Virus record (IMG/VR): IMGVR_UViG_3300032308_001684
Coordinates: 31,849 to 95,848 of that record
DNA: 64,000 nucleotides
Source of the DNA: a virus
Direction: 5' to 3' (one strand)
Shown: piece after piece, positions 5,798-55,163 of the stretch
Position numbering within the stretch: position 1 is the stretch's first letter
How the letters are laid out: each line of letters opens with the position of its first letter
Notes under the pieces: generated by a model
The model's input: only the letters and a program-made list of their open reading frames with translations
Databases searched by the model: none
What the model was told of the DNA's origin: nothing
Program-made: the position numbers and the translations under genes

Positions 5798-5805
5798 TTT
5801 TTTCC

Positions 5806-7119: not shown

Positions 7120-7134
7120 AAAACTTATATATAG

Positions 7135-7162: not shown

Positions 7163-7180
7163 TCATTCTAAAAATTCAAA

Positions 7181-18819: not shown

Positions 18820-19779
18820 TCAAGCCTTGCGTTCAATTGCCTCAACCAGTCCTGGTGTGAACGTGTCACGGAACTGATCATAGACACCTGACAATGCTAC
18901 CTTAGCGGCGTCGCGTTGTTCTTGTGTCCACTTGACAATGTTGGCACCTTCTTCTTGAACTAGACGCTGTTCGGCACGAGCACCATCACGGATGGTCTCA
19001 GCACGTTCTTCACGTCCTGCAAGAATAGCGGCTTGCTTGATCACGGCCTGAACTTCAGGGCTCATTGTGGCCCAGAACTTGTCACCAATGATCATTGATG
19101 TGAGGAACAAGCTGTGGCCTGTGTCAATCACTGACTTGGTAACTTCATTCTGACGCAATGGGTACATACGTGGGTAGTTGGTTTCGCCACCTTCGGCTTC
19201 GCCGTCGACCACTACTTGGCGCAGGTCTTCTACTTCAGCAACAACAGGCTTCATGCCCAGTGCAGAAATAGTTGCTTGTGCAACAGGGTTACGGTTTGAA
19301 CGAACTGCTGTACCAGCAAGCTCTTCTAAAGTGCTAACTTTCTTGTTAGCAATCATCTGACGGAAACCGCCAGAGTATGTGAAACTCAATCCACGTACAT
19401 TAGACTTGTCAGTGAGTTTGTTGAGAAGAGTCTCTCCAACTTCACCTTCTAGCACACGGGTAGCATGCTCATGATCTTTAAACAAGAAAGGAAGATCAAA
19501 TACCAAGAAGTCTTGTTCATACTTCTCAGCAAGCCATGTGGTGTACATCTGGCTCATTTCAATCTTGCCTGCTTCCATGAGATCTAGCAAATCATGCTTG
19601 GTGACCACAACACCATCGTTATAACGCTGGCTGTACTCTGAAAGAGTCATGATTTCAACTTCGATCTTGTGCTCGCTTTGTTGTTCGTTTACACGACGCT
19701 CAAAGTCTTCAGCGGCACGAAGGAAAAGGTTTAAAGGCTCATGGGCGATAACCCAACGAATCTTAGTAGTTTTGCTCAT
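18820..19779 (-). CDS. TRAP-type solute-binding protein (DctP), without signal peptide
   Basis: 319 residues. The core matches DctP periplasmic receptors: FLVFDLPFLFKDHEHA, LEGEVGETLLNKL, a GLSFTYSGGFRQM strand, LEELAGTAVRSNRNPVAQA with the ligand-binding Arg, and AEGGETNYP. The N-terminus MSKTTKIRWVIAHEP starts directly with the first strand of the mature domain, so no export signal is present. It may bind a carboxylate in the cytoplasm. No DctQ or DctM is seen. It is the last gene of the AhpC-DctP operon, 143 bases after the second TctC. Confidence 0.85.
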   Translation of the reverse strand: MSKTTKIRWVIAHEPLNLFLRAAEDFERRVNEQQSEHKIEVEIMTLSEYSQRYNDGVVVTKHDLLDLMEAGKIEMSQMYTTWLAEKYEQDFLVFDLPFLFKDHEHATRVLEGEVGETLLNKLTDKSNVRGLSFTYSGGFRQMIANKKVSTLEELAGTAVRSNRNPVAQATISALGMKPVVAEVEDLRQVVVDGEAEGGETNYPRMYPLRQNEVTKSVIDTGHSLFLTSMIIGDKFWATMSPEVQAVIKQAAILAGREERAETIRDGARAEQRLVQEEGANIVKWTQEQRDAAKVALSGVYDQFRDTFTPGLVEAIERKA

Positions 19780-19922
19780 TTTTTATATCCAAATTTGGTA
19801 GTTTAAATGTGCTCGCGATTGCTCGCTACGGTTCGGCGTTCTAGGCATAACATGCTAGTAAATGGGTTTTACCCAAGGCGTCGTTGTAACCGGCGTCGAT
19901 CACCTGACCGGCGCTGCCATTA
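19780..19922 (-). other. Intergenic stretch between TctC and DctP
   Basis: 143 bases without an ORF. Two GCCGGT copies and GTCG repeats are seen, but no clear promoter or terminator. It is the only sizeable gap inside this operon, which otherwise has overlapping genes. Confidence 0.5.
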
Positions 19923-20822
19923 TTATTTAGCCAGTTTCACACCTTGGCTCAGGCGTTTCCACAGGGTAACTTGTGAATCAAACCAACGCTGTGTGGCGGT
20001 AGCGTCAAGATTGCTGGGCTCGCAGTAGTCCACAGCATAAGCTCGTTGTACGCTGGCAGCTTTGGCAGCTTCAACAACCATGCCACGAAGTTCATTGTAC
20101 TGTGTGTCGGGCATGGATCGGGGTACTTGTAAGCTGTGCATGTTGACCACTTCGCCTACTCCAGCAAAGCCCTGACTTTCTAAAGTAGGAACTCCACGCA
20201 CAGTTCGACGTCCAGAGATGCCCAGGGCATGTAGATCGCCTTTGTCTAAGAATCCTTCAACTTCTCCCAGGAATGCCACACTGAGTTCAATGTTGCCTGA
20301 GATGACATCCATGCTGGCTTCACGTGTGCCTTTGTAGGGCACTGGCTGTGCATTGGGGAAACGCTTGACAATCTCCATGGCCATCAAGTGCGATGTAGCA
20401 CCCAAACCAGAGATACCAATGTTGATGGGCTTTGACTTGTCAACTTCCTGCCAGCTACGATATTTTTTGCTCACAATGACCATGGGTGCGGCACACTGTG
20501 TCATCAATGGCCGGAAGTCTGCCACTGAGTGACTTTCTTCAGGATAAAAGTTTGGGCGAACAAAGAAGGCAGTAGATGCACTCAATACAGTGTTAGGGGT
20601 GGTTGCTACGTGTTTGGCACCAATGGTTGCTCCTGCTCCTGGTTTGTTTTCCAAGATGAATGTGTATTTCTTTTGATTCTTGTTGAGCTCTTCAACAAGA
20701 CTACGGCTGTATTGTGCTTGTGTGTCGCCCATGCCAAAGGGCCATATGATAGATACGGTCTGTTGTGCTTGAGACGAAAGCGATGCCAATGTGACGGCAC
20801 TGGCGATTAAAAACTTTTTCAT
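19923..20822 (-). CDS. tctC: Tripartite tricarboxylate transporter binding protein (Bug/TctC), copy 2
   Basis: 299 residues. Signal peptide MKKFLIASAVTLASLSSQA, then the TctC order: IWPFGMGDTQAQY, VENKPGAGATIGAKHVA-like ENKPGAGATIGA, PINIGISGLGATSHLMA, VPYKGTREASMDVISGNIE and GISGRRTVRGVPTL. ENKPGAGATIGA and PYKG are the Bug ligand-site signatures and are better preserved than in copy 1. It acts in the periplasm. Its ATG overlaps the stop of the PP-loop paralog B (ATGA), so both are coupled in translation. Confidence 0.92.
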   Translation of the reverse strand: MKKFLIASAVTLASLSSQAQQTVSIIWPFGMGDTQAQYSRSLVEELNKNQKKYTFILENKPGAGATIGAKHVATTPNTVLSASTAFFVRPNFYPEESHSVADFRPLMTQCAAPMVIVSKKYRSWQEVDKSKPINIGISGLGATSHLMAMEIVKRFPNAQPVPYKGTREASMDVISGNIELSVAFLGEVEGFLDKGDLHALGISGRRTVRGVPTLESQGFAGVGEVVNMHSLQVPRSMPDTQYNELRGMVVEAAKAASVQRAYAVDYCEPSNLDATATQRWFDSQVTLWKRLSQGVKLAK

Positions 20823-40807: not shown

Positions 40808-41689
40808 TCAAGTACCCCAGGCGTTACGCCAGATATCCACTTGCAGTCTGGGACTGTAGCGCCATCCTCGATCCAAGGCCAACTGCGCCACTTGTTCAGT
40901 GTTGAGATTGTATACGTCGGGCACACCGCCCATGGGCATCAAGTACACCGGCCCGCCAAATCCTGCTTCTCGATACTCTTCCACTGCACGTTCAGCGTCT
41001 GCTACGTCTTGTTTGGTAGCCACAACAAACTTTAGATAAGTCATTCCAACCATTTCGTAACTCTTGACAATCTTAGAGTTGATTGCTGACTCCCATGCTT
41101 CACCCGAACAAGGTAGTTTGGGACTCACTGAGAATGTCAGTTTGTCGTAGTCTCTACCATAACGTGTGAACTCTTCAAACAGGTATTCATATACATCAGA
41201 ATGCAAGGGCTGGCTGCCGTTGGTCTCAAAAGTAAGATTGCGTAAGCCGCGCTGGCGACAATATTCAATGAGATCGGGATACAGTTGCTGATATCCCAGC
41301 AAGGGTTCGCCGCCTGTGATCACAAGATGTACGTCATCGCCTATGCCTTGGTCCCAACGATTGTTAGGGATCATAGCATGCATCTTGTCCACAATATCTT
41401 CCACGCTGTCTTGCTCGTTGAAACGTTTGAATTCAGGATAGATGCTGGCATAGCTGTCACAGCCTGTTTTTGCTAGAGGCAAGTCTTCAAACTTTTTGTA
41501 TTGATCGATATTTTTAATAATCTCAATTACCTCAGGATTGTGTCCTTCCAGCTGTTCATCGCGAGGGCGACCAAATTTACGGCAACGGAAGTTGCATCCG
41601 TATGTGCGAAAGAATACCGACGGCACTCCGGCCCAGCGTCCTTCGCCTTGTAAACTGTAAAATATTTCTGTGTATGTGATTTTTTCCAT
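40808..41689 (-). CDS. queE: 7-carboxy-7-deazaguanine synthase-like radical SAM (QueE)
   Basis: 293 residues. YTEIFYSLQGEGRWAGVPSVF and TYGCNFRC, then VHLVITGGEPLLG and LTFETNGSQ are QueE blocks; the enzyme rearranges carboxytetrahydropterin to carboxy-deazaguanine using a 4Fe-4S cluster. The usual CxxxCxxC reads C-NFR-C-RK-F, so the third Cys is missing there; the next Cys is in TGCDSYAS after a 40-residue insert. This longer form is the one seen in phages. Works with QueD (47255) and FolE (51393). Confidence 0.83.
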   Translation of the reverse strand: MEKITYTEIFYSLQGEGRWAGVPSVFFRTYGCNFRCRKFGRPRDEQLEGHNPEVIEIIKNIDQYKKFEDLPLAKTGCDSYASIYPEFKRFNEQDSVEDIVDKMHAMIPNNRWDQGIGDDVHLVITGGEPLLGYQQLYPDLIEYCRQRGLRNLTFETNGSQPLHSDVYEYLFEEFTRYGRDYDKLTFSVSPKLPCSGEAWESAINSKIVKSYEMVGMTYLKFVVATKQDVADAERAVEEYREAGFGGPVYLMPMGGVPDVYNLNTEQVAQLALDRGWRYSPRLQVDIWRNAWGT

Positions 41690-41697
41690 GATCGTAT

Positions 41698-42138
41698 TTA
41701 GATAGTTTCAAAAATTTCTTCTTGTAAATAGCGTTGCAATTCTTTGTCTGTGGGTTCTACGGCGTAGTTGCGTTTGAAAAATATCTCATAACTGTCCGAA
41801 CCGTATTTGCCAATGCCATATAACATTGTAGCATCTTCGTGTTGCCAAGTCAAGAAATCTTGGGTCATACCATGTAATCTTTTATATCGGACATTAACCA
41901 TTCCTAACGGCCATATAACATCCTTTACTTCTTCTTCAGAAGCCTTTAAGAATTTATTAGGAGTACTCCATTTATCCATAAAGATTGGAAATACTGTTTT
42001 AACTGGTATGCGTCCAGTTTGGTTCAACATGATCACAGCCACCATGTGTTGCCAAGCACCATTTACTGTGTGTCCGGCAGGTAATTGCTGTTGCACCATC
42101 AAATCATCTCGTAAAGGTTTGATCAGCTGTCCTGCCAT
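41698..42138 (-). CDS. HhH-GPD DNA glycosylase (MBD4-like)
   Basis: 146 residues from ATG 42138, which has GGAGG in front. WQHMVAVIMLNQTGR, VFPIFMDKWSTPNKFLKA, PLGMVNVRYKRLHGMTQDFL, and YGIGKYGSDSYEIFF with YAVEPTDKELQRYL match the MBD4/thymine glycosylase catalytic domain, with the final Asp as catalytic residue. It would remove mismatched or modified bases, of interest in a phage with altered DNA. Confidence 0.8.
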   Translation of the reverse strand: MAGQLIKPLRDDLMVQQQLPAGHTVNGAWQHMVAVIMLNQTGRIPVKTVFPIFMDKWSTPNKFLKASEEEVKDVIWPLGMVNVRYKRLHGMTQDFLTWQHEDATMLYGIGKYGSDSYEIFFKRNYAVEPTDKELQRYLQEEIFETI

Positions 42139-42614
42139 GTCTGCCTCCATGAATATGACAATCTATCGCTGACATGATACTCTCTGTCAGCAGTAAAAAC
42201 TGCGGCTCGGGTTTGAGTCACGCATCTATCTGTATGCATTCCGCCGAACAACACTATTTTCGGATTCATATATGATATGATCATGGCAGTTTCTTCATCT
42301 GATGTGCTGACATGATCTTCGGGTCTCATGACGAGATTGTTGTTTGCGATCCGATCACCAAACTTTTTAAAGTATTGCCATCGTTGACCAAACTGCGACT
42401 CTGTAATCCTGGTGGTTTGATTGAGCAATCCACCATACCCTTCTTTAGTGATAAAGTCCAACTGATAAATCACGGGCCATGCTATATCTTGTAATTTTTG
42501 CACTAACTGGTCGCTGAATTCCTTCCATCTTACATTGGACTCATTGACATCAGGATCTGGCATGGACTCAAACAAGTGCACCATGACTACCACAACTTCA
42601 GACATGCTGTTCAT
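42123..42614 (-). CDS. Isochorismatase-like protein
   Basis: About 163 residues. IVLFGGMHTDRCVTQTRAAVF has the catalytic Cys context of cysteine hydrolases, and YHVSDRLSYS the following strand. The N-terminal Asp of the triad is not in its usual place (VVVVMVHLFESMPDP). It may be a non-catalytic or diverged member. ATG 42605 is an alternative. Overlaps both neighbours by 15-17 bases. Confidence 0.55.
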   Translation of the reverse strand: MNSMSEVVVVMVHLFESMPDPDVNESNVRWKEFSDQLVQKLQDIAWPVIYQLDFITKEGYGGLLNQTTRITESQFGQRWQYFKKFGDRIANNNLVMRPEDHVSTSDEETAMIISYMNPKIVLFGGMHTDRCVTQTRAAVFTADREYHVSDRLSYSWRQTWQDS

Positions 42615-43191
42615 TGGGATGCCACTTTTTCCACCACTCCTCCCAGGGAAAAACAATCCACTGCGGATCGTCTACTTTGTTCACTGTCTCTGCAGTGTAG
42701 TTCACATATATTTCAGCGGCGCTGGTTTCGTTGTCGTATAGTGTGGCAATACGTACATTGTGTCCCCATACATCTGCCCAGCGTGAGTCGTTGGGCAAAC
42801 ATGATTTTTGCCAGTCTTGACGTATCCAGTTTATAGTAGCACCCGAATCATTGATATCGTCTACAATGAGAATGTTTTTAGCATTGGCTCCGTGAGCCTT
42901 AATCAGCGCCATGCCAGCTTCAGTTGCAGTCAACTCGACAGGTTCGTAACCAAACGCATCTTCAGCCATCCACAAATTACTTTCGCATTCTGAATCATCG
43001 CCATCGCGCAATCTTACCTGCAGAGCATACATTGGGCAGTCTAAGTATTGACTGATAAGATTGGCTGGAGTTAGTCCTCCACGGGTAATACCTACAATGT
43101 AATCGGGTCTCCATTGATCCAAATACATCTGACGTATGATCTCTTGAGTTTGTCTTTGTACATCGGTCCAACTTACATAAACTTTTTTCAT
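42598..43191 (-). CDS. Type I phosphoribosyltransferase
   Basis: 197 residues. IVGITRGGLTPANLISQYL and ILIVDDINDSGATINW, the PRPP-binding DD-x-x-x-SG loop, define a type I PRTase of the xanthine/guanine or uracil kind. It salvages bases for phage DNA synthesis, perhaps the deazaguanine side. Overlaps FkbM. Confidence 0.85.
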   Translation of the reverse strand: MKKVYVSWTDVQRQTQEIIRQMYLDQWRPDYIVGITRGGLTPANLISQYLDCPMYALQVRLRDGDDSECESNLWMAEDAFGYEPVELTATEAGMALIKAHGANAKNILIVDDINDSGATINWIRQDWQKSCLPNDSRWADVWGHNVRIATLYDNETSAAEIYVNYTAETVNKVDDPQWIVFPWEEWWKKWHPNEQHV

Positions 43192-43850
43192 GACAGCACA
43201 TACCAATCATCCCATTGGGACACATCTTGATGTTTTCTTCTGTAACCTTTGCTTGTAAGCAAATCAAAAATCTTTTCTCTCATGGGCGTGTAATTGTGCT
43301 CACAAGTGATCATTTTAACAGTGTATTGATCAAAATCAAAATTAGCAAGTATAGCAAATTCACTGCCTTCGGTGTCTATGGACAGATAGTCAATCTCTTG
43401 TGGTGCCTGATATTTTTTTAGGAGATCCAGCAGAGAGATAGTTTTCACAGGATATTTTTCCCCGTTGCGACGGCGGCCGGAATGTGGGTCACAGGAACTG
43501 AAAGTGTCAATGGTAGACAATTCAGGACCATAGGATGCCAGCGAGCTATCAACCTGATTGAACATCAATTCCAGATTGGTCTCGCTCCACACACAGTCGG
43601 TGGTGATGTGTGCTGTGCGATTCTGCATGAGGCTGTTGTGCCAATGCCGAGAAGGTTCTGCCAGTATTCCTTGCCAGCCAAATTCTGTTTCCAGCAACCA
43701 AGTATTGCTGATATCGACGCCGTTGGTGGCCCCAAACTCTACAAAGTAACCTTGCTGTTTCAATCCCAGTTCATCCAGCACAAAGAGATCCTGCCCCAGC
43801 TGAGATTTAGTCTTGGCCAATTTTGGGTCAGTTGAAGAAGAAATATACAT
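43188..43850 (-). CDS. FkbM-type methyltransferase
   Basis: 220 residues: SQLGQDLFVLDELGLKQQGY, FVEFGATNGVDISNTWLLE (SAM-binding Glu/Asp), GILAEPSRHW, and IDYLSIDTEGSEFAIL. This is the FkbM O-methyltransferase domain, which methylates sugars or lipids in glycan clusters. Its ATGA overlap couples it to the PRTase gene. Confidence 0.88.
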   Translation of the reverse strand: MYISSSTDPKLAKTKSQLGQDLFVLDELGLKQQGYFVEFGATNGVDISNTWLLETEFGWQGILAEPSRHWHNSLMQNRTAHITTDCVWSETNLELMFNQVDSSLASYGPELSTIDTFSSCDPHSGRRRNGEKYPVKTISLLDLLKKYQAPQEIDYLSIDTEGSEFAILANFDFDQYTVKMITCEHNYTPMREKIFDLLTSKGYRRKHQDVSQWDDWYVLS

Positions 43851-44715: not shown

Positions 44716-45618
44716 TTATCCTTGTTGATTGTTCCATTGGTCAAACTCTACGTCTTGGAATCCCCAGTTGAGATCTTCATCGGCTAGTTGAGCTGTTGCC
44801 AACACAGCCGCAGGATCCCACGCTCCAGGTAGCATATTCCTGTCGTGATCTTGATGTAATGTAAAGCAAGGAAATTTGAATATGCCTTGCTTTACTCCTC
44901 GGCTGATGAATCGCAACATAGACACACTGTCATGATGACCTGCACATGCCAGACCTTGATAGAATCCACCCACTGATTCTGCAGTGGCCTTGGATATCAG
45001 CATGAAATCGCCAGCACCGTTGGTGTGTATGGTTTTTTCATTGTATGACGATACAGGTATCTGATCCGTGGGCATTTTGATATCTGCTGTAATACTCTGC
45101 TGACCTTGCATTCCATGCAATTGGAAGATACGCTGGAAAGCGTATCTGATGTAGTCACTTGGTTGTACAGATTCAATTCCATCTCCGTCAAAATCATATC
45201 TGTCACAACGATATACTATGCCATCTGTGAGATTCTGTTGTGCCAGGTAATCTACCAGCTCATGAGAAAACAAGATGTCTGGATTGGATATCAACACAAA
45301 CTGTCCCTTAGCTCTACGTAATCCAACATTTTTGGCTGGAAATTCTGCCAAAGGCCTACGTGTACCAGTGCGTAGATGATATTCATTGGGCACTGTGATT
45401 ATCCTTATAGGGAGGTCAGTGCATGAAGGAATGATCGTGCTCAATGGTTCTTGATCTGTGGGTGGATTCCACTCCACAATGACTAACTCAAACAATCCGG
45501 GATATTTTTGTTGACATTGGTCCAGCCCTTGCACAAACATGTCAAGACGCCGTCGCATGTTCTCACCGTAGTTGTCATTGCGTGTGGTAACCACTACGGA
45601 GATATAAGGATCGGTCAA
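44716..45618 (-). CDS. GT2-like glycosyltransferase
   Basis: 300 residues. ISVVVTTRNDNYGENMRRRL at the start and NVGLRRAKGQFVLISNPDILFS with a DxD-like NPDI, then TNGAGDFMLISKATAESVGGF. This is the GT-A fold of family 2 enzymes. Coupled to the methyltransferase by a four-base overlap. Confidence 0.83.
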   Translation of the reverse strand: MTDPYISVVVTTRNDNYGENMRRRLDMFVQGLDQCQQKYPGLFELVIVEWNPPTDQEPLSTIIPSCTDLPIRIITVPNEYHLRTGTRRPLAEFPAKNVGLRRAKGQFVLISNPDILFSHELVDYLAQQNLTDGIVYRCDRYDFDGDGIESVQPSDYIRYAFQRIFQLHGMQGQQSITADIKMPTDQIPVSSYNEKTIHTNGAGDFMLISKATAESVGGFYQGLACAGHHDSVSMLRFISRGVKQGIFKFPCFTLHQDHDRNMLPGAWDPAAVLATAQLADEDLNWGFQDVEFDQWNNQQG

Positions 45619-46403
45619 AGTTTCTTTGCCTTTACTAACAGATGCCAGCCAAGATATTCTTTTACTGCCTGGCGCACTTCGTCGGGCATGGCTTCAAACC
45701 AAGGTTCAAGTTCATAGTTCCCAGACTTGTAGGCAGGCACATTGTACATGAAACAATGATCTTGACGCAGTCTCTCTATGTGAAACTGTCCTTCCAGCAT
45801 GCGATGGATGTCTTCTCTCGAATAAGCCTGTGCATAAGGACAACCGCTCTGTGCTTCAAACTGATCTAGGCCTTTTTGTATCATGGCATACTTCCAGGAA
45901 TTTTTGGCATAGACCATGAAACGAAACTCACCGCCAGGTTTTAAAATTTCATGTACATTGTTGATAATAGTGTCAATGGCCGGGAAGTGATGGATAACTC
46001 CATAACTGTACACAAGATCAAATTTTCCCAGTGCCGACAATGCAGTGGTATCGCTGGCATCAATGTTATGGAACTCTCCTTCAAGTTCCAAAACTTTAAA
46101 TCGTTGTCGAGCAATCTCCACACTTTGATCGCTGTAGTCTACACCCACATATTCGGCTCCACGCTTGGCAAACTCTTCAGCATCACTGCCAATGCCTGAC
46201 CCAATCTCTAACACACGTTTTCCGGCCCAGAGATGAAACCCAGCAAATTCTCTAATGTGTGGCTCCACACGATATCTACGTTCCGACACTTCCTGATAGA
46301 ACTCAGGGGTGCCTAGTTCGCTACGACCGTGTAAGATATTGCATGGTTGACGATTCCAGTAGGACTTGATTTTATCCAACAGGTGTTGATCTGCATTATG
46401 CAT
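45615..46403 (-). CDS. Class I SAM methyltransferase
   Basis: 262 residues. RVLEIGSGIGSDAEEFAKRG (motif I), GVDYSDQSVEIARQRF, LVYSYGVIHHFP and ILKPGGEFRFMVY are the classical small-molecule/sugar methyltransferase motifs. It sits between two glycosyltransferases and probably caps or modifies a sugar. Confidence 0.87.
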   Translation of the reverse strand: MHNADQHLLDKIKSYWNRQPCNILHGRSELGTPEFYQEVSERRYRVEPHIREFAGFHLWAGKRVLEIGSGIGSDAEEFAKRGAEYVGVDYSDQSVEIARQRFKVLELEGEFHNIDASDTTALSALGKFDLVYSYGVIHHFPAIDTIINNVHEILKPGGEFRFMVYAKNSWKYAMIQKGLDQFEAQSGCPYAQAYSREDIHRMLEGQFHIERLRQDHCFMYNVPAYKSGNYELEPWFEAMPDEVRQAVKEYLGWHLLVKAKKL

Positions 46404-47253
46404 GTACGCTCACCTGATTATTTGGATCTTGTTCCTTGCCAATCATGTATTCCCAAGGGTCTTGCTTGCCCAGCATCACTTGTTCATACCAGTCATTGGG
46501 CTGACCAATGCGTTGTAGATACCAGGCAATCTTGTTGGCATCGTTCATTCGTTTGTTACGGAAAGTTACGTGATTGAAATCACGAGGATCATCGGGGCGG
46601 CCTTCCAGCATGGGACGATTCTTAAATGTGGCATCCTGGTTATTGCCAGTGATGTCAAATCTGTCGTGTAGAACCTCAACATCGATGTTTTGCATGATAC
46701 CCACAATGTAGGATATCTGACTGATGGTGGCATCTGTGAGTTGATGATTGCTGAGATGACCCAGTAGGTAATACCAGTCTCTTGGCACTATAGGAAATAT
46801 GGCATAAGGATGTTGATTATGTGTGGGCATGCGGAGACACAAGAATTTTCCATTGTGTTCGGTAATGCGTTGATCCCAATCTTTGGTCTGCATCACAGCG
46901 TCATCGTTCCAAAACATCAACCATTCACCGTTGGCTAATCCGGCCAGAGCATTTAGATACTCGTGCAGTCGAAGATACCCCAGCGGTGTAAATTCAATCA
47001 CAGTGGCGTCTACACCTCTGTCTTCTAACTCAGGAAACACATATTGCTGGCACCATTCAAGAGATTGTTTGTCATCATTGTCAAAGGCCAACATGATTTC
47101 TATCTCAGAAGGGTCATGAGCTAGATCCAGCAAACTTAACAAACTTCGTTTCAGCATGTCCGTTCTACCACGTGTGGGCAGTAGTACTGATATCTGATGA
47201 CTAGGCTTTTGCGCCCAAATTTTGCTTATGCCTACTGCTGTTTTTGTGCTCAT
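46396..47253 (-). CDS. GT2-like glycosyltransferase
   Basis: 285 residues from ATG 47253 after AAGGATAAT. ISVLLPTRGRTDMLKRSLLS, IMLAFDNDDKQS and WLMFWNDDAVMQTKDWD with the DxD-type NDD give a GT-A family 2 enzyme. Follows QueD by one base. Confidence 0.82.
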   Translation of the reverse strand: MSTKTAVGISKIWAQKPSHQISVLLPTRGRTDMLKRSLLSLLDLAHDPSEIEIMLAFDNDDKQSLEWCQQYVFPELEDRGVDATVIEFTPLGYLRLHEYLNALAGLANGEWLMFWNDDAVMQTKDWDQRITEHNGKFLCLRMPTHNQHPYAIFPIVPRDWYYLLGHLSNHQLTDATISQISYIVGIMQNIDVEVLHDRFDITGNNQDATFKNRPMLEGRPDDPRDFNHVTFRNKRMNDANKIAWYLQRIGQPNDWYEQVMLGKQDPWEYMIGKEQDPNNQVSVHA

Positions 47254-47254
47254 A

Positions 47255-47794
47255 TTATCCTTCATATACTGCCGAATTGCCAGCATGTTCAAACACTTCC
47301 GCACTGCGTAAACGTACACCCTGGCCCACAGGATATCGACATTTGAATTCTTGTAAAGTGTCTCCGTTCTCTGCTACCAGGAACCAAGAATTACCTGCTT
47401 GAAATGCCTTGAGAATATTTTCCATGGTTGTGTAAGCAAGTTCAGCAAACTTTTCGCAACCCACACCCTCGACAATTCTGAGGTCACACACTCCGCCTTG
47501 ATCTTGTAATCCAAACATGGCCATGGTCTCAAACAATTTCAAATGTGGATCATCCTTGGCCACAACCAGGGTGTGATCAAACACATATTCGCTCCATTCT
47601 TTAAATGCTTTGAGTCCACCAAAGTCCATGACCCAGTTACGGTCGTCCAAGGTTTCACTTTCAAATACAAGTTTGATACCAATTGAATATCCATGTAATA
47701 GACTGCAATGACTGTGCGTACTACGCCACTGTCTAAAACAGCATGATAAGCCGCGGTCAGTGCCGTATGTTTTTGTTGAAAGATATTTTGCCAT
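47255..47794 (-). CDS. queD: 6-carboxytetrahydropterin synthase (QueD)
   Basis: 179 residues. CCFRQWRSTHSHCSLLHGYS gives the Cys and the His ligands of the zinc site, WVMDFGGLK the second strand, and FDHTLV the catalytic His/Asp, with RIVEGVGCEKFAELAY at the pterin Glu. Longer than bacterial QueD (about 120), as in phages. It turns dihydroneopterin triphosphate from FolE into carboxytetrahydropterin for QueE. Confidence 0.9.
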   Translation of the reverse strand: MAKYLSTKTYGTDRGLSCCFRQWRSTHSHCSLLHGYSIGIKLVFESETLDDRNWVMDFGGLKAFKEWSEYVFDHTLVVAKDDPHLKLFETMAMFGLQDQGGVCDLRIVEGVGCEKFAELAYTTMENILKAFQAGNSWFLVAENGDTLQEFKCRYPVGQGVRLRSAEVFEHAGNSAVYEG

Positions 47795-47812
47795 TTGTTT
47801 CTCCTATGTTAG

Positions 47813-47842
47813 ATTATAGCATAGGCTTGCAGAATTTGTAAA
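47813..47842 (-). promoter_or_regulatory. sigma70-type promoter of queD unit
   Basis: TTTACA at 47837-47842, TATAAT at 47813-47818, spacer 18. Confidence 0.7.
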
Positions 47843-47874
47843 GCGGGATGAATGCCGGAAAGGCCGCTGTGAAT

Positions 47875-48267
47875 CTATTTACCAGGGTTATAATCTGGCT
47901 TTTTATAGTTGGCTTGGCCAGGGATAACGCCACGCACACCGCCCACCGGATCTTCAACATCACCATGCCGTCTTGGAATCATGTGTACATGAGGATACAG
48001 CACTGTTTGCCCGGCAGCCGTACCGCAGTTCATTCCAATGTTGTAAGCATCAGCATCGCCCTTGAGTACTACCCATTCGCCATAGCGTTGGGCGGCCCGA
48101 AAACAATCTATAATGTTATCGGGTGTATTGACTTTGGGCACGAACAACAAATGCCCCTGGCTCACTGGATAACGGTCTCGAAAGATCCAGAATTTCTTGT
48201 CTTCGAAATACGCATCATCCCAGGGAGCAATACCTTGCTCCTGTGCTTGTTTGAGAGTGGCTGTCAT
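47875..48267 (-). CDS. HIT-family nucleotide hydrolase
   Basis: 130 residues from ATG 48267 (48294 possible). WIFRDRYPVSQGHLLFVPK and the catalytic histidine triad HVHMIPR. HIT proteins hydrolyse dinucleoside polyphosphates or nucleotide adducts. Follows the lipoprotein gene. Confidence 0.88.
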   Translation of the reverse strand: MTATLKQAQEQGIAPWDDAYFEDKKFWIFRDRYPVSQGHLLFVPKVNTPDNIIDCFRAAQRYGEWVVLKGDADAYNIGMNCGTAAGQTVLYPHVHMIPRRHGDVEDPVGGVRGVIPGQANYKKPDYNPGK

Positions 48268-48268
48268 A

Positions 48269-50644
48269 TTAGTTAAAACTCCATAATAGTTCATTCATAA
48301 TGCGGTATTGCCCTATGGTACTCACAGCCGCATTAAATCTAAATTGGGTACCTTTGTTAATCTGTTTGTTATAAACTCCTCGCATGTAATATGTAGGAGT
48401 TTTTAGAATATCAAGATTCTGTTTAGTATAAACTAATTGCCCTGAGCTGTCAAATGAACTGGGCACATTGGCCTCGACTTGACCACTGAGTACACGGGGC
48501 GCCTGCCCGAGATAGATACCCATATCGTTTTTCTTATCGCCCCAACGATATCCTGCTTCGGCCCAAGTGCCCAGGGTAGGACTCACACGAGTAATCAGTC
48601 CTGGGTTGATATCTGTGGTTACATACATCAAACTGGCCTTGGCAACAAAGCCGCCTTGGCGGTATGATACAACGTTGTCAAACACTGAGGATGATCGTAC
48701 CGTGCCCCAGACTCCACTGAAACTAACCCAAGGGTTGAAATTGAGCCGCGTGTATTGTGACCCAAACGCCCAAGCATCTTTTTTCCATACCGCAGGAATG
48801 CCTATACTGTACTGTCCTCCTCCAGGATCGTTGGGAGATTGATCCCCAGCAATACGCAACCCATTTACAACATTGGCCCTGACACCAGTTAAAAATTCAG
48901 CAGGGCTGGCAAGATCGTGATCGGCGCCCATGAAGTTGTTTCTTTGGAAAGCATCAAGTCCTGTGACATTCATTGGTCTAGCGTTGATCATGAACGGTCT
49001 TTGTAAAGCGTCCATGGCTATCATCTGTCCTGATCCTATGTCTACACCACTCACATGCCCTGACAGCATCTTTGCACCTATTGAAAGAGCACCTATGGGT
49101 CTCAATGCGGCTTCTAGATCTATCACACTGCCGTTCCAATAAGTGGCCGCTGTTTGTGCCAGCACAGCATTGGCCGCGGCTGTGCTCATGTACGGCCACT
49201 TCTGTTTGATTAGATCCACAGCGGCCTGTGCTGTTAATGTGGTTTGTGTACCCATTTGACTCATGTACACAGCCATCTTCTTGTCATTGTTGGCCTCATA
49301 CACAATCATGGTCACTAGATACATCTTGCCATCTGGAGCTTGAAAAATGTTTACTGTGCTGTTGGCTTCATTGGCACCCGTGCCCAGGCTGGTAGTCATT
49401 GCGGCAGCCTGTTTCAAAAAGTCCGTGAATATTTTTTGATGTGCGGCTACATATTTGCCATCACTGCTCTTTAACAGTACCTGTGTGCTATTATGATTGC
49501 CTGAAAAGTCTGTGGCACTGACCATGATATCGGTGCGGCCGTCACCATTGACATCCAAGAATCTAGGGTTATAGGTAGAATAGGTATTGGTATCATACCC
49601 AACCAATGTGTCTGCAGTCACATCTTGGAACACAGCCGACCCATTGTTTTTTAGGAACTGGATGGCACTTTGTTTAGCGTGAAAACCAAGACGGCTAAAA
49701 ACAATGGCATCTGGTCGTCCATCTTCGTTGAAATCGTGCGACACTACTCTCACATTGTGATCCAACAATGGTGCAGGAAGATCTGCTATGTATTGATAAT
49801 TCAGTTGCCCTCCGACAATGGTGTAACTGTACATCTTGGTGGTGCGGGCGTCACTGCATGCGGCGTTAGTTGTGTTACAAGCATTGTCTGTGACAATGAT
49901 TTGTTTTTGACCGTTGCCTAAAAAATTATCTGCAACAATACTTGAACCGCCCCATCGCAAATCGCCAGCATGGCCTCTACTGTCTATGTAAGGAGTAAAA
50001 TTGTTTACACGGTTGTTGATGGCCAGTGTGGTGTTGGGTCCATAGTCCACAAACAATAAATCTTTAAAACCGTCGCCATCCATGTCGGCAATGGCGCTGT
50101 CATGCGCCCAGACATTGGTCAATGGAATAGAGATACGATTAAAGTGAGTGCCCTGGTTGGAAAAAACATATCCAGGGCCATAGTGTTGCATGTCCGTGCT
50201 GGGTGCTACCAGCATGTCTTTTCGTCCTGTGTTGAACAAATCCGCAAACTTCACACTGGGTTCTGTGCCCAGGATTTCGTTGATACCGCCTGGAAACCAC
50301 TGTGCGGTACGGTCAATCAAGGTACCGTTTTCCCAGGCCAGCAAAGTAAGTCGACTATTGCTCCAGGTTTCGGGGGTGGCATACTGTGTTTGTCGTCCGG
50401 CCAGTATGATATCGTTGCCACTGCCAGTGATATTGGCATCAAAGATATCAAACACTGGAGCCGCACCATCTACTTTGGTCAGAGGATCAATAGTGGCAAC
50501 TCTCACAGGAGTGTGATATGGAACCTCGGCTCTTAAATATCCACCACCACCTGGGCCTCCTCCACCACCACCACCACCGCACCCAGCAAGGCCAGCGGCA
50601 AATGCTGATATTGAAACAAATAGTATCGTTCTTTTAAACGTCAT
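48269..50644 (-). CDS. Large exported lipoprotein with FG-GAP/VCBS repeats and beta-barrel-like end
   Basis: 791 residues. A signal with lipobox LAGC (Cys 22) is followed by a run of Gly. Three Ca-type repeats are seen: DMDGDGFKDLLFVD, DFNEDGRPDAIVFS, DVNGDGRTDIMVSA, as in integrin-like beta-propellers. The last 200 residues alternate aromatic and polar strands and end in ELLWSFN, barrel-like but with an extra Asn. A promoter is 30 bases upstream. It may be an outer-membrane host-range or adhesin-type protein; similar FG-GAP proteins occur in marine phages. Confidence 0.7.
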   Translation of the reverse strand: MTFKRTILFVSISAFAAGLAGCGGGGGGGGPGGGGYLRAEVPYHTPVRVATIDPLTKVDGAAPVFDIFDANITGSGNDIILAGRQTQYATPETWSNSRLTLLAWENGTLIDRTAQWFPGGINEILGTEPSVKFADLFNTGRKDMLVAPSTDMQHYGPGYVFSNQGTHFNRISIPLTNVWAHDSAIADMDGDGFKDLLFVDYGPNTTLAINNRVNNFTPYIDSRGHAGDLRWGGSSIVADNFLGNGQKQIIVTDNACNTTNAACSDARTTKMYSYTIVGGQLNYQYIADLPAPLLDHNVRVVSHDFNEDGRPDAIVFSRLGFHAKQSAIQFLKNNGSAVFQDVTADTLVGYDTNTYSTYNPRFLDVNGDGRTDIMVSATDFSGNHNSTQVLLKSSDGKYVAAHQKIFTDFLKQAAAMTTSLGTGANEANSTVNIFQAPDGKMYLVTMIVYEANNDKKMAVYMSQMGTQTTLTAQAAVDLIKQKWPYMSTAAANAVLAQTAATYWNGSVIDLEAALRPIGALSIGAKMLSGHVSGVDIGSGQMIAMDALQRPFMINARPMNVTGLDAFQRNNFMGADHDLASPAEFLTGVRANVVNGLRIAGDQSPNDPGGGQYSIGIPAVWKKDAWAFGSQYTRLNFNPWVSFSGVWGTVRSSSVFDNVVSYRQGGFVAKASLMYVTTDINPGLITRVSPTLGTWAEAGYRWGDKKNDMGIYLGQAPRVLSGQVEANVPSSFDSSGQLVYTKQNLDILKTPTYYMRGVYNKQINKGTQFRFNAAVSTIGQYRIMNELLWSFN

Positions 50645-50673
50645 AAAAATTCCAGACTAGTTATACTAAGAAC

Positions 50674-50703
50674 AGTATAACAAAATCTGGAATTTCTGGT
50701 CAA
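50674..50703 (-). promoter_or_regulatory. sigma70-type promoter of lipoprotein gene
   Basis: TTGACC at 50698-50703 then AGAAAT, TATACT at 50674-50679, spacer 18. Confidence 0.78.
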
Positions 50704-50721
50704 CTCGTAGACTTACCTAAC

Positions 50722-51396
50722 TCAAAACTTGTAAATTGGCAAGTAATAGTTTGAATCGGTCCAGCATTTGCGTTTGAATTTAATTTCAATTCTGCTTTTA
50801 CTGTTGTAATAATGCAAATCGGCAAAATCCGAGTCCACTAAATTGTGAAACTTGATTGTTGTGCCAGTAAATCTGTGCCCATTCTCTTGCAAAGTAGTGG
50901 TGGTATCGATTACTTTGAACCCACACAGGCAACAATCAAGAGTGGCTTTGTCTCGGATAATTCCCAACATATAGTATTCTTTGATTGTGGCAATTTTGCT
51001 CAACCATCCCTGCACATGAATGTTCCAGACTCCTTGAACATTCTGTTGGGAAAAGTGTGTTTTAGCATCCTGATCAAAATTTTGAAACACACTGGCTTCT
51101 GTAGTCAGTTTGGATTTTTCTTGTTTGCTTACACTCTTGACATCAATGCCAATGTCTGTGCCAATTTTTACATCAATCAAACTATGACCAGCACCATTCC
51201 ATACAGCACCAGGTATGCTGTCACTCACAGCATATTCCCATAACTCTTTTCCAAGACTCAGTGGACGACCCAGAGCAATGTGTCTACGCAATGGTGCAAG
51301 TATACTGTCCATCTCTGTTTGAAATGCAGTAGAAAAATTAGCACCAACCAGGGTGCTAATTTCTGTTGTTGTCATTGGTTCAAGACAATATGTCAT
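50722..51396 (-). CDS. PD-(D/E)XK-like nuclease candidate
   Basis: 224 residues. HSLIDVKIGTDIGIDVKSVSKQEKS has an Asp-rich strand followed by D-x-K, the order of restriction-type nuclease cores, with an upstream Glu (ELWEYAVSDS). Rest unrecognised. It overlaps FolE by four bases, so it is made together with the deazaguanine route and might cut unmodified DNA. The fold is inferred. Confidence 0.5.
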   Translation of the reverse strand: MTYCLEPMTTTEISTLVGANFSTAFQTEMDSILAPLRRHIALGRPLSLGKELWEYAVSDSIPGAVWNGAGHSLIDVKIGTDIGIDVKSVSKQEKSKLTTEASVFQNFDQDAKTHFSQQNVQGVWNIHVQGWLSKIATIKEYYMLGIIRDKATLDCCLCGFKVIDTTTTLQENGHRFTGTTIKFHNLVDSDFADLHYYNSKSRIEIKFKRKCWTDSNYYLPIYKF

Positions 51397-52163
51397 CTAG
51401 GAGCAAATTCCTGCTGTAGCTTGATATTGTCCATGAACTCTTTTTTTACCCCTGGGTCTGTTTTAAACACCCCAGTTAATACTGTGGTTTGTGTCAGTGA
51501 GCTATGTGCCATGATACCACGATTCTCGCAACATCCGTGTGTGGCTTGAATATAAACTCCTACGTTTTCACTGTCTGTGGCTCGCATGATTTCACGTGCT
51601 ATGTCGTTGCACAGTTCTTCTTGTAACGTGCCGCGCCGAGCACACCATTGGGCAATGCGTGTGTACTTCGACAATCCGATAAGCTTCTGCGCGGCAATGA
51701 TTCCAATATAGGCGACTCCTGAAACTGGTTGATGATGATGACTGCACATACTACGCAACTCACTGCGAACAACAAGCATACCGCTATAACGATCATTGCC
51801 ATCATTTGGAAAAGCGGTTGCATCAGGTGCTGGATCATATCTTCCTGCCATAATTTCGTTAAAGTACATTTTGGCCAAGCGACGTGCTGTGCCTTGTGAG
51901 TTAGGATCGTTTTCACGATCAATTAGTAATCGATCAAGCACAGTTTCAAATGCTGGTGTGGCTTCGTTGATTAGTTTTTCTATATCGCCATCATGTAGAT
52001 AATCACTGATATTGTCGCCTGCCCAAAAGCGTTTGCCGTCACGTTTCATTTTAAAACGGATATGGTCGCCTAAGTATGCTTCTTTATAGTTTTTGTCGTC
52101 ATCGCCTTGCTGTTCTGCGCCAGCAAGTGCGTTTTTTAAATCATCTGATGTAAATGTTGTCAA
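51393..52163 (-). CDS. folE: GTP cyclohydrolase I (FolE)
   Basis: 256 residues. SMCSHHHQPVSGVAYIGI with zinc Cys and His, GLSKYTRIAQWCARRGTLQEELCNDI, GVYIQATHGCCENRGI (second zinc Cys and His) and TTVLTGVF. This is the type I enzyme, here the first step GTP to dihydroneopterin triphosphate for QueD. A promoter lies 47 bases upstream. Confidence 0.92.
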   Translation of the reverse strand: MTTFTSDDLKNALAGAEQQGDDDKNYKEAYLGDHIRFKMKRDGKRFWAGDNISDYLHDGDIEKLINEATPAFETVLDRLLIDRENDPNSQGTARRLAKMYFNEIMAGRYDPAPDATAFPNDGNDRYSGMLVVRSELRSMCSHHHQPVSGVAYIGIIAAQKLIGLSKYTRIAQWCARRGTLQEELCNDIAREIMRATDSENVGVYIQATHGCCENRGIMAHSSLTQTTVLTGVFKTDPGVKKEFMDNIKLQQEFAPR

Positions 52164-52209
52164 TTTTTTCTCCGAGTTATTAAGGTCGTGGATGACCAGT
52201 CTTGCTATC

Positions 52210-52238
52210 AGTATAACAACTATTTAGACTGCTGTCAA
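52210..52238 (-). promoter_or_regulatory. sigma70-type promoter of folE
   Basis: TTGACA at 52233-52238, TATACT at 52210-52215, spacer 17. Confidence 0.8.
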
Positions 52239-52828
52239 GTGATTATATGAATTTTACGGCAATCAGGATACACTACTTTTTGATTTTGAGGAACAATGTT
52301 GAGCAACATCTCAAGACCTTTGACTGCATCTTCTATGGCAGGACGGTAATGATACCCAACCATGAACTCTTGTTGTTCTTGCCAAGGGCTAATTGACAAA
52401 TCTCTGCCATCATAGCGTTGGCGTAAAATAGTTTGGTATGCTGTTGCATCGTCAAGTAGTATAGCGCCGCCGTGCCCAATTTCCAAAGGTTTAGAATATC
52501 CAAAACTTAAACACATCATTGATCCTACTCGATACATATCTGGCTCAAGTCGTCTGGCACTGTCCCATATACGGGTGTTAATAAATTGATATTCGCCTAC
52601 CCACTGCTGAGTGTCTTGATCAAGATAGGTAAACTCAATACCTAGTTTGTGCATGGTCATGGGAATACTAAGATACGTATATGGCGTAAATGAACAATTA
52701 GTGATGTTATCATACCGTAAACATAATTCAATAGCGTGTGTGCAACAATCAGTCATGATTGCGTAAGTGGCGCCAGTGTACTCTGCCAGCAGTTTTTCAA
52801 ATTCTAAGATAGTATCAAACAATTTCAT
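52235..52828 (-). CDS. Short DegT/DnrJ-type aminotransferase
   Basis: About 197 residues from ATG 52828. FEKLLAEYTGATYAIMTDCCTHAIELCL is the PLP phosphate-binding N-terminus, and CLSFGYSKPLEIGHGGAIL holds the PLP Lys. The full family has about 370-400 residues; this one stops after the large domain, so the small domain is missing. It may still make amino sugars as a truncated form or with a partner. Overlaps the 119-aa gene. Confidence 0.7.
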   Translation of the reverse strand: MKLFDTILEFEKLLAEYTGATYAIMTDCCTHAIELCLRYDNITNCSFTPYTYLSIPMTMHKLGIEFTYLDQDTQQWVGEYQFINTRIWDSARRLEPDMYRVGSMMCLSFGYSKPLEIGHGGAILLDDATAYQTILRQRYDGRDLSISPWQEQQEFMVGYHYRPAIEDAVKGLEMLLNIVPQNQKVVYPDCRKIHIIT

Positions 52829-53184
52829 TCTGACAGATGATCCTTTTTGATTTCTCTTACAGGGCAAGATAGTTTTTCTGCCATGGTGTTTTTAATACCA
52901 ACCCGCTTGTTATTCCAGTCTCTTATTTTTATAGCACGACGTCCAATCTCTTCCAGCGGAAGTTCCATTTCTCGTCCACTTTTGAGTTCTTTTTCCAACT
53001 CCCAAATTTCATTGTGTATCTGTTGCAATTTGTTCAGATCGTCCTCAACCAACGACAACTCTAAATGTGTAGCTTGAGAGTTATAAAAATCAAGCTCGAC
53101 TTGATTGTTACCGATACGTTGGTGCTTGACTCTGGCAATGGCCAGACGATCCAGTAGTTCAACAACAGGAAATTGTGGCATCAT
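52825..53184 (-). CDS. Glycan-cluster protein of unknown function, 119 aa
   Basis: Helical: FPVVELLDRLAIARVKHQRI, LEKELKSGREMELPLEEIG and RDWNNKRVGIKNTMAEKL. Such short helical proteins with IHNEIWELE occur beside nucleotide-sugar and radical SAM genes. No reaction known. Coupled by overlap to both neighbours. Confidence 0.6.
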   Translation of the reverse strand: MMPQFPVVELLDRLAIARVKHQRIGNNQVELDFYNSQATHLELSLVEDDLNKLQQIHNEIWELEKELKSGREMELPLEEIGRRAIKIRDWNNKRVGIKNTMAEKLSCPVREIKKDHLSE

Positions 53185-54209
53185 AGATATAGTTGCTCAA
53201 TAGTTTTTGGATTGTCTAAAATAGACTGTATGTCATTGTTGGTAGAGTTGGGCCTGCAAGGTTTACACAATGTCACATTGGTTTTATCGTAGATGTCGTG
53301 GTGTCGTTGACTCAACCATAAATCTCGAAAATCTCCTTGATCCCAACGACCAATGCTAAACTGCGGGTTGCCTTTGTTATCGCAACATACATAGATATAC
53401 CCCTCGGCACAAAATACAGGAAAATGATACATCTGGTGACAACGTTTGTATTGTCGAGGTTGAGTTTTGTTTTCATTGATCCAGTAAGGAATACTGGTCC
53501 GATCACTGGCTTGTTTAATAAAAGATTTAAGCTCTTCAGTTATTACATGAGCTTGATTGTTATAAATCACCGGACGAAAGTACAGCATACGCCCACGGAC
53601 TTCTTTAACGTAATCAAAAAGATCGTTTATGGCCTGTTGATTATCGTTGTAAGGATTGATCAAACATTTAAAATCTACATTTATGCCGGCAGCAATAAAC
53701 TCTTTAGCATTTTCTTTTACACGGCTAAACAAACTTTTTGATGTAAGACTTCTGCGTATTTTTTCATATAGATCTTCTGTGCCAGCATCAATATCAATAC
53801 CAATCCAGGCTAGTTTTTTTAGTTTACTTACTGACACACCATCCAATAGCCGATCAAGTTTAGAACCGTTGGTAGTGATACTGGTAAGAAATCCTAGATC
53901 AATGGTATGTTCAATTACGTGTTCGTATCCTGACAGCACAGTGGGTTCGCCACCACCAGGATAAGTGATGGTATGAGTTGTTCCGTAGCTGTCAGGGGTA
54001 TGAGATCGCCAGGTAGACAGTTTGTCTAGTAGTTTAATATATTCTGTGTATTTTTTCTGTACTGGAGCCGCAGATCTATGATCTGCACTGTTGCAGTAGT
54101 AACAATCTTGATTACAGATATTAGTAAGATCAATGTCTACCTGGGCCGGAAGTATGGCTTTGGTGTCACAATTTTGCATCCAATGGACAAGTTCGGCGGT
54201 GTGATACAT
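53181..54209 (-). CDS. Radical SAM protein with SPASM-like C-terminus
   Basis: 342 residues. VDIDLTNICNQDCYYCN carries CxxxCxxC, PGGGEPTVLSGY the GGE SAM site, and the C-terminal half has a second Cys set (RCHQ, FCAEGYIYVCCDN, LCKPC) for auxiliary clusters. Modifies a peptide, sugar or RNA substrate. It sits with GalE and the aminotransferase, so an unusual sugar is likely. ATGA overlap with the next gene. Confidence 0.85.
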   Translation of the reverse strand: MYHTAELVHWMQNCDTKAILPAQVDIDLTNICNQDCYYCNSADHRSAAPVQKKYTEYIKLLDKLSTWRSHTPDSYGTTHTITYPGGGEPTVLSGYEHVIEHTIDLGFLTSITTNGSKLDRLLDGVSVSKLKKLAWIGIDIDAGTEDLYEKIRRSLTSKSLFSRVKENAKEFIAAGINVDFKCLINPYNDNQQAINDLFDYVKEVRGRMLYFRPVIYNNQAHVITEELKSFIKQASDRTSIPYWINENKTQPRQYKRCHQMYHFPVFCAEGYIYVCCDNKGNPQFSIGRWDQGDFRDLWLSQRHHDIYDKTNVTLCKPCRPNSTNNDIQSILDNPKTIEQLYL

Positions 54210-54212
54210 GGA

Positions 54213-55163
54213 TTACTTATTGTACCAGTTCCACCCATGCGTGATTATCTCTTCAATATCATATTGAGGTATCCAACCTGTGAGATTATTAAACTTGTCT
54301 GCACTGGCAGTGAGCACAGCCGGGTCTCCGCTTCTTGCTGGTCCGGTAATCAAATTGACTTTTTTACCAGTGACTTTTTCAGCTAATGTTACAATTTCTT
54401 TATTACTGTGTCCTGTATTAGTACCAAGATTGTAAACACCGCTGGGAACAGAAGAATCTATTGCCATGACATGCGCTCTTGCAATATCGTCGACATGAAT
54501 GTAATCACGAACACACGTTCCATCATCAGTGGGGTAGTCAGTGCCATATAGTGTAAAGTTTGTGCCGTTTTTGATACTTTCTAATACTCGAGCAATAATG
54601 TGTGTTGCTCCTGCTGGTTGACCGTGTCGAGCTTGACTGTCTGCACCACATGCATTGAAGTAACGAAATGACACAAAATCTAGATCATATGCACGTTGAT
54701 AACTTTGCAACATCCAGTCAACCATGAGCTTGCTTTGACCATACGGACTGATAGGATCAGCGGGATCAACTTCGTTTACCGGAGTCATTACAGGATTGCC
54801 ATATGTTGCGGCACTGCTACTAAAAATTATTCTAATGTTGGTCAGCTTGTGTTTAACAATATAGTCCAGCATGATCTTGGTCTTGACAAAGTTGTTGTCG
54901 TAGTATTCTTCTGGATTGGCTATGCTGGGCCCTACAAGACTGGTGCCAGCACAGTGAATAATTGCATCTGGGTTGAATTTTTTTATTGATTCAAGTGCAA
55001 CTTCCCCACTAAAATCTCCTGTACACCAGGTAGCGCCAGACTCTAGTAGAAGTTCTTCAGGCACAGTACGATCAATGGCATATACACTGTGTCCGGCATC
55101 TAATAATTTAAGAACTGTTTCTCCGCCAATGTAGCCGGCACCTCCGGTTACTATTACTCTCAT
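54213..55163 (-). CDS. galE: UDP-glucose 4-epimerase-like
   Basis: 316 residues. GGAGYIGGET (NAD site), FSSSAATYGNP, YGQSKLMVDWML (catalytic YxxxK), FRYFNACGAD, and GTCVRDYIHVDDIARAH with NLGTNTGHSNKEIV. These are the GalE blocks; interconverts UDP-Glc/UDP-Gal or the N-acetyl forms. Confidence 0.92.
   Translation of the reverse strand: MRVIVTGGAGYIGGETVLKLLDAGHSVYAIDRTVPEELLLESGATWCTGDFSGEVALESIKKFNPDAIIHCAGTSLVGPSIANPEEYYDNNFVKTKIMLDYIVKHKLTNIRIIFSSSAATYGNPVMTPVNEVDPADPISPYGQSKLMVDWMLQSYQRAYDLDFVSFRYFNACGADSQARHGQPAGATHIIARVLESIKNGTNFTLYGTDYPTDDGTCVRDYIHVDDIARAHVMAIDSSVPSGVYNLGTNTGHSNKEIVTLAEKVTGKKVNLITGPARSGDPAVLTASADKFNNLTGWIPQYDIEEIITHGWNWYNK

Follow-up and report, generated by a model that had tools for sequence, protein, structure and literature searches.

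A predicted PD-(D/E)XK nuclease gene overlapping folE in the deazaguanine cassette of an environmental phage

The window analysed here comprises 64,000 nucleotides of viral DNA, positions 31,849 to 95,848 of IMG/VR virus record IMGVR_UViG_3300032308_001684 (95,848 bases), and carries on its minus strand a gene for a predicted nuclease of the PD-(D/E)XK superfamily that shares four bases with folE. Taking the gene, its relatives and its surroundings together, the explanation that we favour, with confidence somewhat short of even, is that the product is an accessory endonuclease of a deazaguanine cassette, directed at DNA without the phage's mark. It would be a small, single-domain, metal-dependent endonuclease of the restriction-enzyme type, an optional companion of the phage's 7-deazaguanine cassette (FolE, QueD, QueE and a phosphoribosyltransferase). 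By translational coupling, FolE and the nuclease would be co-translated during infection; the nuclease would then cut duplex DNA without the phage's guanine mark, whether the host chromosome or rival phages, and the phage's own DNA would be spared, in the manner of T4 endonucleases II and IV with hydroxymethylcytosine DNA. The central features are:

50722-51396, minus strand: gene of the predicted nuclease with a PD-(D/E)XK restriction-endonuclease fold (224 amino acids, ATG start)
51393-51396, minus strand: four-base ATGA overlap of the nuclease start codon and the folE stop codon
51393-52163, minus strand: folE, GTP cyclohydrolase I (256 amino acids, TTG start, GGAG six bases ahead)

The original prediction had placed a gene at 50722 with a four-base overlap with folE, and both open reading frames were indeed found there, sharing the ATGA. 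Scanning IMG/VR with the single nuclease protein returned 23 loci and with a profile 46, whose products are 33-83% identical to the window protein; some of these loci are nearly identical copies of one another (L016-L018, for instance). Compared with its closest relative, the window gene shows a nonsynonymous divergence (dN) of 0.13 and a saturated synonymous divergence (dS), and an alignment of 34 rows has 29 invariant columns. Given these 46 loci, the low dN against a saturated dS and the invariant columns, the minus-strand frame at 50722-51396 is a real gene. Of 47 nuclease-bearing records, 20 were examined further: the window's and 19 picked mostly by length. In the most distant relative (L046, 5992-7145; 33% identity) the nuclease is directly followed by a frame resembling an RNase-H-type protein by eye, in a record of 141 kb without FolE or strong QueE.

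No credible family match for the nuclease was found in Pfam, PHROGs, NCBIfam or PADLOC; Pfam matches to VPR, CAMP factor, gp37_C and DUF5411 were dismissed as chance, and the best match of 16 family members to Pfam (E 0.023) was to an unrelated family. Nothing credible emerged from the sequences of the PDB, with either the single sequence or the profile. In a collection of annotated phages, one of three different members drew 21 records at E 8-10, which is noise, and the other two drew none; among bacterial and archaeal genome contigs (84,980 species) the profile gave 54 pattern matches, none of them confirmed. A literature search that reached few subscription papers, and so is weak evidence of novelty, found no published description. 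The family appears to be undescribed; the kind of function proposed for it, that of a phage nuclease associated with DNA-modification genes, is already known. Its members are small and amenable to testing, and occur in dozens of natural versions.

An AlphaFold2 model of the window nuclease built on the 34-row alignment reached a predicted local distance difference test score (pLDDT) of 92.7 and a predicted template modelling score (pTM) of 0.89; a second model, for which a member sharing 46% identity with the window protein was the lead sequence and whose alignment partly overlapped with that of the first, reached 92.8 and 0.89. The predicted protein is one compact domain of 224 residues. Invariant across the 34 rows are K50, E51, W53, E54, Y55, D75, D85, V86, K87, T99, E100, A101, S102 and Q105, and further along R148, K200, R202 and E204. 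The model runs from a helix at 50-60 (bearing E51 and E54) through strands at 64-66, at 76-78 (right after D75), at 82-91 (bearing D85-V-K87) and at 97-105 (bearing E100 and Q105) to a helix at 120-136 and a strand at 140-149, the order of helices and strands that is the pattern of the PD-(D/E)XK superfamily. D75 and D85-V-K87, with E51/E54 and Q105, form a conserved D...(D/E)xK set; that these residues, together with E100, make up a PD-(D/E)XK active site is well supported by alignment and model.

Both models were re-aligned with VIA-align to PDB candidates preselected by Foldseek; 50 entries were listed per run, with EcoRV and HincII appearing many times over, and rows no more than one Z unit apart count as tied. 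All 50 in each run are restriction enzymes, MutH, Holliday-junction resolvases or SPARDA complexes, enzymes that we take to belong to the PD-(D/E)XK superfamily, and restriction enzymes fill rows 1-18 for the first model and 1-32 for the second. Entry 3ndh, presumably ThaI, scored Z 7.2 with a root-mean-square deviation (rmsd) of 4.6 over 159 aligned residues for the first model, and Z 7.1 with rmsd 5.2 over 165 for the second. It was accompanied by NhoI (Z 6.7 and 7.0 for the first and second model), Eco15I (6.5 and 6.4), EcoRV (6.2 and 6.1), HinP1I (6.1 and 6.2), BglI (5.6 and 5.4) and DpnI (5.5 and 5.4), and in the second run alone by NaeI (6.5) and SwaI (6.3); the best values for MutH were 5.1 and 4.7, and for Hjc 4.6 and 4.8. 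Against BFVD, Foldseek returned one unnamed viral protein, A0A482IIW3 (E 2e-4, 10% identity). Because the list of structural neighbours is unmixed and the residues are invariant, the assignment to the PD-(D/E)XK nucleases is firm, and on alignment and models we consider it nearly certain; that the protein is catalytically active is highly probable. The original prediction had called it PD-(D/E)XK-like and proposed structure prediction as a check: no fold outside the nuclease superfamily appeared, and two confident models with superfamily neighbours and an invariant E...D...DVK...Q set bear the call out.

The presence of MutH and Hjc among these neighbours also brings in the main rival to a mark-sparing nuclease, namely a recombination or repair nuclease (a Holliday-junction resolvase or a MutH-like nicking enzyme) with a restriction-endonuclease (REase) fold, unrelated to base modification, whose location after folE or close to other replication genes would merely reflect the replication region of a T4-like genome. 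One nuclease copy (L003) adjoins a clamp-loader-like gene, as judged by eye, two others (L011 and L014) come after a family resembling 5'-3' exonucleases, and resolvases with this fold have been proposed for jumbo phages in the portion of the literature available to us (PMC7824862). Weakly in its favour as well, endonuclease VII (PF02945) was above cut-off in none of 20 records, in a search that had no phage control and gave two weaker matches with stops. Against this, a profile search without positive control found the nuclease nowhere else in 13 records whose folE locus is nuclease-free, and endonuclease VII was likewise above cut-off in none of the nine of these that were searched for it; these relatives seem to manage without the nuclease, though fragments or missed resolvases are possible. 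We regard this alternative as unlikely.

The family assignment of folE itself is certain (PF01227, E 9e-39; PHROG 2197, GTP cyclohydrolase, E 2.4e-43). Its nearest counterpart among the annotated phages is the FolE of Sinorhizobium phage Phosso (61.6% identity). The exact ATGA overlap with folE is present in 21 of the 46 nuclease loci, and folE lies upstream in the same cluster in five more (L011, L012, L014, L024 and L019). Since the same overlap recurs in so many relatives, it is more than chance, and nuclease and FolE are probably coupled in translation. Two further nuclease copies were reached through folE: in L144 one open reading frame separates the two genes, and in L139 folE ends in TAA with no ATGA overlap. 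In a tree of 34 nuclease sequences (L010, whose own folE is not in the available sequence, was labelled "cluster" by its likeness to L011), adjacency to folE is found in three main clades, all of them supported, and changes seven times, or six without L036, whose upstream sequence is missing.

The genes around the pair suggest what folE may be doing there. Besides folE, the window holds:

47255-47794, minus strand: queD-like 6-carboxytetrahydropterin synthase gene (PF01242, E 5.5e-12; PHROG 2389, E 8.5e-33; NCBIfam QueD below cut-off)
40811-41689, minus strand: queE-like 7-carboxy-7-deazaguanine synthase gene (PHROG 2076, E 2.3e-47; NCBIfam QueE below cut-off)
42601-43206, minus strand: xanthine/guanine-type phosphoribosyltransferase gene (PF00156, E 5.6e-16; NCBIfam xanthine phosphoribosyltransferase, E 3.2e-15, below cut-off)
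41701-42150, minus strand: gene of an HhH-GPD base-excision glycosylase beside queE (PF00730, E 3.7e-8)
47875-48294, minus strand: gene of the cassette's HIT-family protein (PF01230, E 1.1e-11)

FolE, QueD and QueE, the precursor genes of 7-deazaguanine modification, are thus all found around the nuclease by family models, and with the phosphoribosyltransferase they are, as judged from sequence, a set for deazaguanine synthesis; in the part of the source at hand, FolE, QueD, QueE and QueC are described as making preQ0 (PMC6884629). Among the 20 nuclease-bearing records, a strong QueE match (E <1e-48) was found in 17, the other three giving weak radical-SAM matches, FolE in 17 (in G002 at just 37% identity), the phosphoribosyltransferase in 18 and QueD in 10. 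Strong QueE and FolE are missing from G004 (86 kb), G014 (44 kb) and G019 (141 kb, that of the 33% relative L046), all of them possible fragments. IMG/VR holds at least 597 FolE relatives, and the best 80 of these were examined: queE is present at 56 loci, HIT at 47, the phosphoribosyltransferase at 45, HhH-GPD at 25 and queD at 14, counts that are limited by the available flanks. The combination of FolE, HhH-GPD glycosylase, a cupin-like protein (by eye), phosphoribosyltransferase, HIT, QueE and QueD is a widespread phage cassette (window 40811-43206; L095-L174), and the glycosylase is often the first gene of at least 80 codons behind folE (family F9, 12 loci). Several radical-SAM-like proteins of about 400-475 amino acids (by eye) occur in L048 and L049 (record bases 1-32,500), where two stretches also match the QueE model weakly.

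Annotated phages hint at how the base might reach the phage's DNA. In Synechococcus phage BUCT-ZZ01, QueE has a phosphoribosyltransferase as its neighbour and the cluster of the two includes a homologue of the nt-1 DpdA2; in Stenotrophomonas phage Ps15 such an enzyme lies within a QueC-DpdA2-QueE cluster; the cluster of Acidovorax phage ACP17 has no phosphoribosyltransferase annotated. Because the enzyme clusters with QueE and DpdA2 in the first two, conversion of the free deazaguanine base to a nucleotide by the phosphoribosyltransferase would, by analogy, be a reasonable idea. The cassette suggests that the phage's DNA may contain deazaguanine, and the nuclease would then be selective for unmodified DNA; that its function is to spare deazaguanine DNA is plausible, although we place it slightly below an even chance.

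Phages with the nuclease would be expected to shun a short palindrome if the enzyme cut their unprotected DNA there. Avoidance of 4- and 6-base palindromes was therefore compared between loci with the nuclease (approximately 473 kb) and loci without it (741 kb). Near-copies were removed from both sets (L012, L013, L015, L017, L018, L024 and L032 from the bearing set; L096, L103 and L106 from the free set), L046 and L047 were also left out, L100 was excluded from both sets, and other near-copies were kept (L049 slightly overlaps its neighbours). With both strands counted, AGCGCT was observed 0 times against 39 expected in the nuclease-bearing set and 8 times against 63 in the nuclease-free set, and GTGCAC 8 times against 146 and 28 times against 230. 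No palindrome of either length was strongly avoided in the nuclease-bearing set alone; the differences between bearing and free were mild (CCGG 0.92 vs 1.11, TCTAGA 0.61 vs 0.90, GACGTC 0.85 vs 1.41). The lack of any strong nuclease-specific avoidance fits a protected genome, and also a target that is non-palindromic, long or structural.

A number of these and other observations weigh against the proposal that the nuclease is a mark-sparing part of the cassette. As to the fold, the best Z is below 8, a level that may reflect a mere common arrangement, and Foldseek gave no match in the PDB at E <0.001. As to the linkage, 20 of the 46 nuclease loci lack folE in the available sequence (several are truncated on the upstream side), and this group of phages often has the cassette genes, whose co-occurrence with the nuclease is therefore not specific to it. 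Conversely, the nuclease was found within the available flank at three of the best 80 folE loci, one of them the known contig L028. In other phages, unrelated genes begin at this very offset after folE (HIT, what looks by eye like a ferredoxin-like gene, HhH-GPD and unnamed families), and therefore the overlap alone is no marker of a functional pair; what follows folE is a slot in which genes are exchanged. From this slot, the scarcity among close folE loci and the absence from the 13 nuclease-free records, it follows that the nuclease is an optional accessory of the cassette and no constant partner of FolE, and such optional presence speaks in turn against an essential role in replication.

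Divergence between genes gives a mixed signal. Pairwise distances of the nuclease correlate with those of the phosphoribosyltransferase (r 0.72, n=17), HIT (0.51, n=13) and FolE (0.45, n=23), a sign of co-inheritance that favours the proposal. They correlate weakly with those of QueE (0.26, n=21), which counts against it, as does the range of 0.32-0.84 that FolE, QueE, phosphoribosyltransferase and HIT show among themselves, above the nuclease-QueE value; partial matches below 60% were dropped and only exact duplicates removed, and shared phage ancestry contributes to all of these values. The weak correlation with QueE, the patchy distribution, the several genomic positions with their six or seven changes of folE adjacency, and the varied genes in the slot would all suit a free-standing selfish or interference nuclease (of homing type, or with a set target site in competitor phages) that occupies a swappable slot and would work without DNA modification. 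We consider it improbable: its other three correlations fall within the range of the cassette, the model is one compact domain, and the exact overlap has been retained across deep divergence.

The last group of objections concerns the mark. A DpdA2 profile matched none of 18 records (12 with and six without the nuclease) although it detected its positive control, nt-1; the DpdA of phage 9g was likewise absent from the same 18 with its positive control detected, and a search with the nt-1 DpdA2 protein, run without control, matched none of 20. These searches covered DpdA2 and DpdA of the 9g type. A further model, PF01702 (TGT), matched none of 20 records, a result that was discarded because the model likewise fails to detect the known 9g DpdA, the DpdA2 of nt-1 and the BUCT-ZZ01 homologue. 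QueC was above the Pfam cut-off in one of the 20 records, with weaker matches in five more including the window's, although the records are possible fragments. Finally, loci with the nuclease and loci lacking it both avoid G/C-containing palindromes, an argument against a fully protected genome; because both sets avoid the same ones, restriction still seems active on this phage group.

The pathway might accordingly feed only tRNA queuosine. For 48 phages with pathway genes and no DpdA, Hutinet et al. proposed, in the part of their paper available, either a boost of tRNA queuosine or DpdA-independent insertion (PMC6884629). A cassette that supplies tRNA queuosine or folate, with the nuclease acting as an unselective shredder of host DNA that is kept off the phage genome by timing or compartment, would agree with that published tRNA role, with the lack of DpdA of the kinds searched and with the continued avoidance of G/C palindromes. 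A purine-type phosphoribosyltransferase in 18 of the 20 nuclease-bearing records, and its clustering with QueE and DpdA2 in two annotated phages, hint instead at handling of the base beyond tRNA, and we find this alternative the least probable of those considered.

Returning to an endonuclease that spares marked DNA, the proposal can be taken further, to a module resembling restriction-modification, in which FolE, QueD, QueE and the phosphoribosyltransferase would provide a 7-deazaguanine self mark without DpdA, the nuclease would be the restriction half, and the slot behind folE would swap weapons against unmarked DNA (the nuclease, perhaps the HhH-GPD glycosylase). This extension is doubtful, a little more so than the resolvase alternative and less so than the selfish one. 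The glycosylase of the cassette may likewise act on unmarked DNA; restriction enzymes that excise bases exist, of another family (PabI), according to the section of the source available (PMC10273834). For this large environmental phage group, with its deazaguanine cassette, its phosphoribosyltransferase and no recognised DpdA where searched, the base's route into DNA, or its absence from it, becomes a direct question.

Other genes of the window are noted here for completeness. Downstream of the nuclease (48269-50644, minus strand) lies the gene of a large FG-GAP-repeat protein (PF13517, E 3.4e-15) with a lipoprotein-like start (by eye); at several loci its relatives (family F13, 11 members) lie downstream of folE. 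Two minus-strand regions (4904-8329 and 18823-20822) hold, by eye, genes like those of tripartite tricarboxylate transporters (TctC/Bug-like and TctA-like) and a porin gene, and in the same transport regions a DctP solute-binding protein (PF03480, E 3.5e-45), all host-type transport genes on a phage. Between 9418 and 26877 (minus strand) are 28 tRNA genes and a tmRNA gene with the tag ANDEVYALAA.

Among known systems, type II restriction endonucleases (ThaI, if 3ndh is so identified, NhoI, EcoRV, HinP1I, NaeI and SwaI) resemble the phage nuclease in size, predicted fold (113-165 residues aligned) and E...D...DxK set; the phage protein differs from them in its identity of about 10%, its Z below 8 and its coupling to folE near deazaguanine genes. 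Unlike a type II restriction-modification system, it has no DNA methyltransferase among the nine neighbours scanned with Pfam (46396-55163); a frame at 45615-46403, outside that scan, looks methyltransferase-like by eye. Archaeal Hjc-type resolvases and MutH belong to the same superfamily, with lower Z than the best restriction enzymes, and the phage nuclease differs from them in being optional in its phage group. T4 endonucleases II and IV (denA and denB) are of a different family, EndoII being a GIY-YIG enzyme, and their mark is on cytosine, whereas here it would be on guanine. The proposed job is the same, to start the degradation of host DNA with modified phage DNA spared: in the part of the account available, EndoII and EndoIV attack cytosine DNA and spare hydroxymethylcytosine DNA (PMC6071114). 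Bacterial Dpd systems, as described in the available portions of two sources (PMC6884629, PMC12904381), combine a deazaguanine self mark with exclusion of unmodified DNA, whereas the phage locus has one small nuclease and no DpdA of the DpdA2 or 9g type searched for. In jumbo phages, Mom domains are fused to REase-fold nucleases predicted, in the available part of the report, to attack the DNA of the host or of superinfecting phages (PMC7824862); there too a phage-borne DNA-modifying activity is joined to such a nuclease, by fusion with an adenine-modifying enzyme, whereas here the nuclease has a gene of its own, which overlaps one for deazaguanine precursor synthesis. Deazaguanine marking of phage DNA and mark-sparing nucleases of the T4 type are both known, and a nuclease overlapping the first gene of deazaguanine synthesis would join the two.
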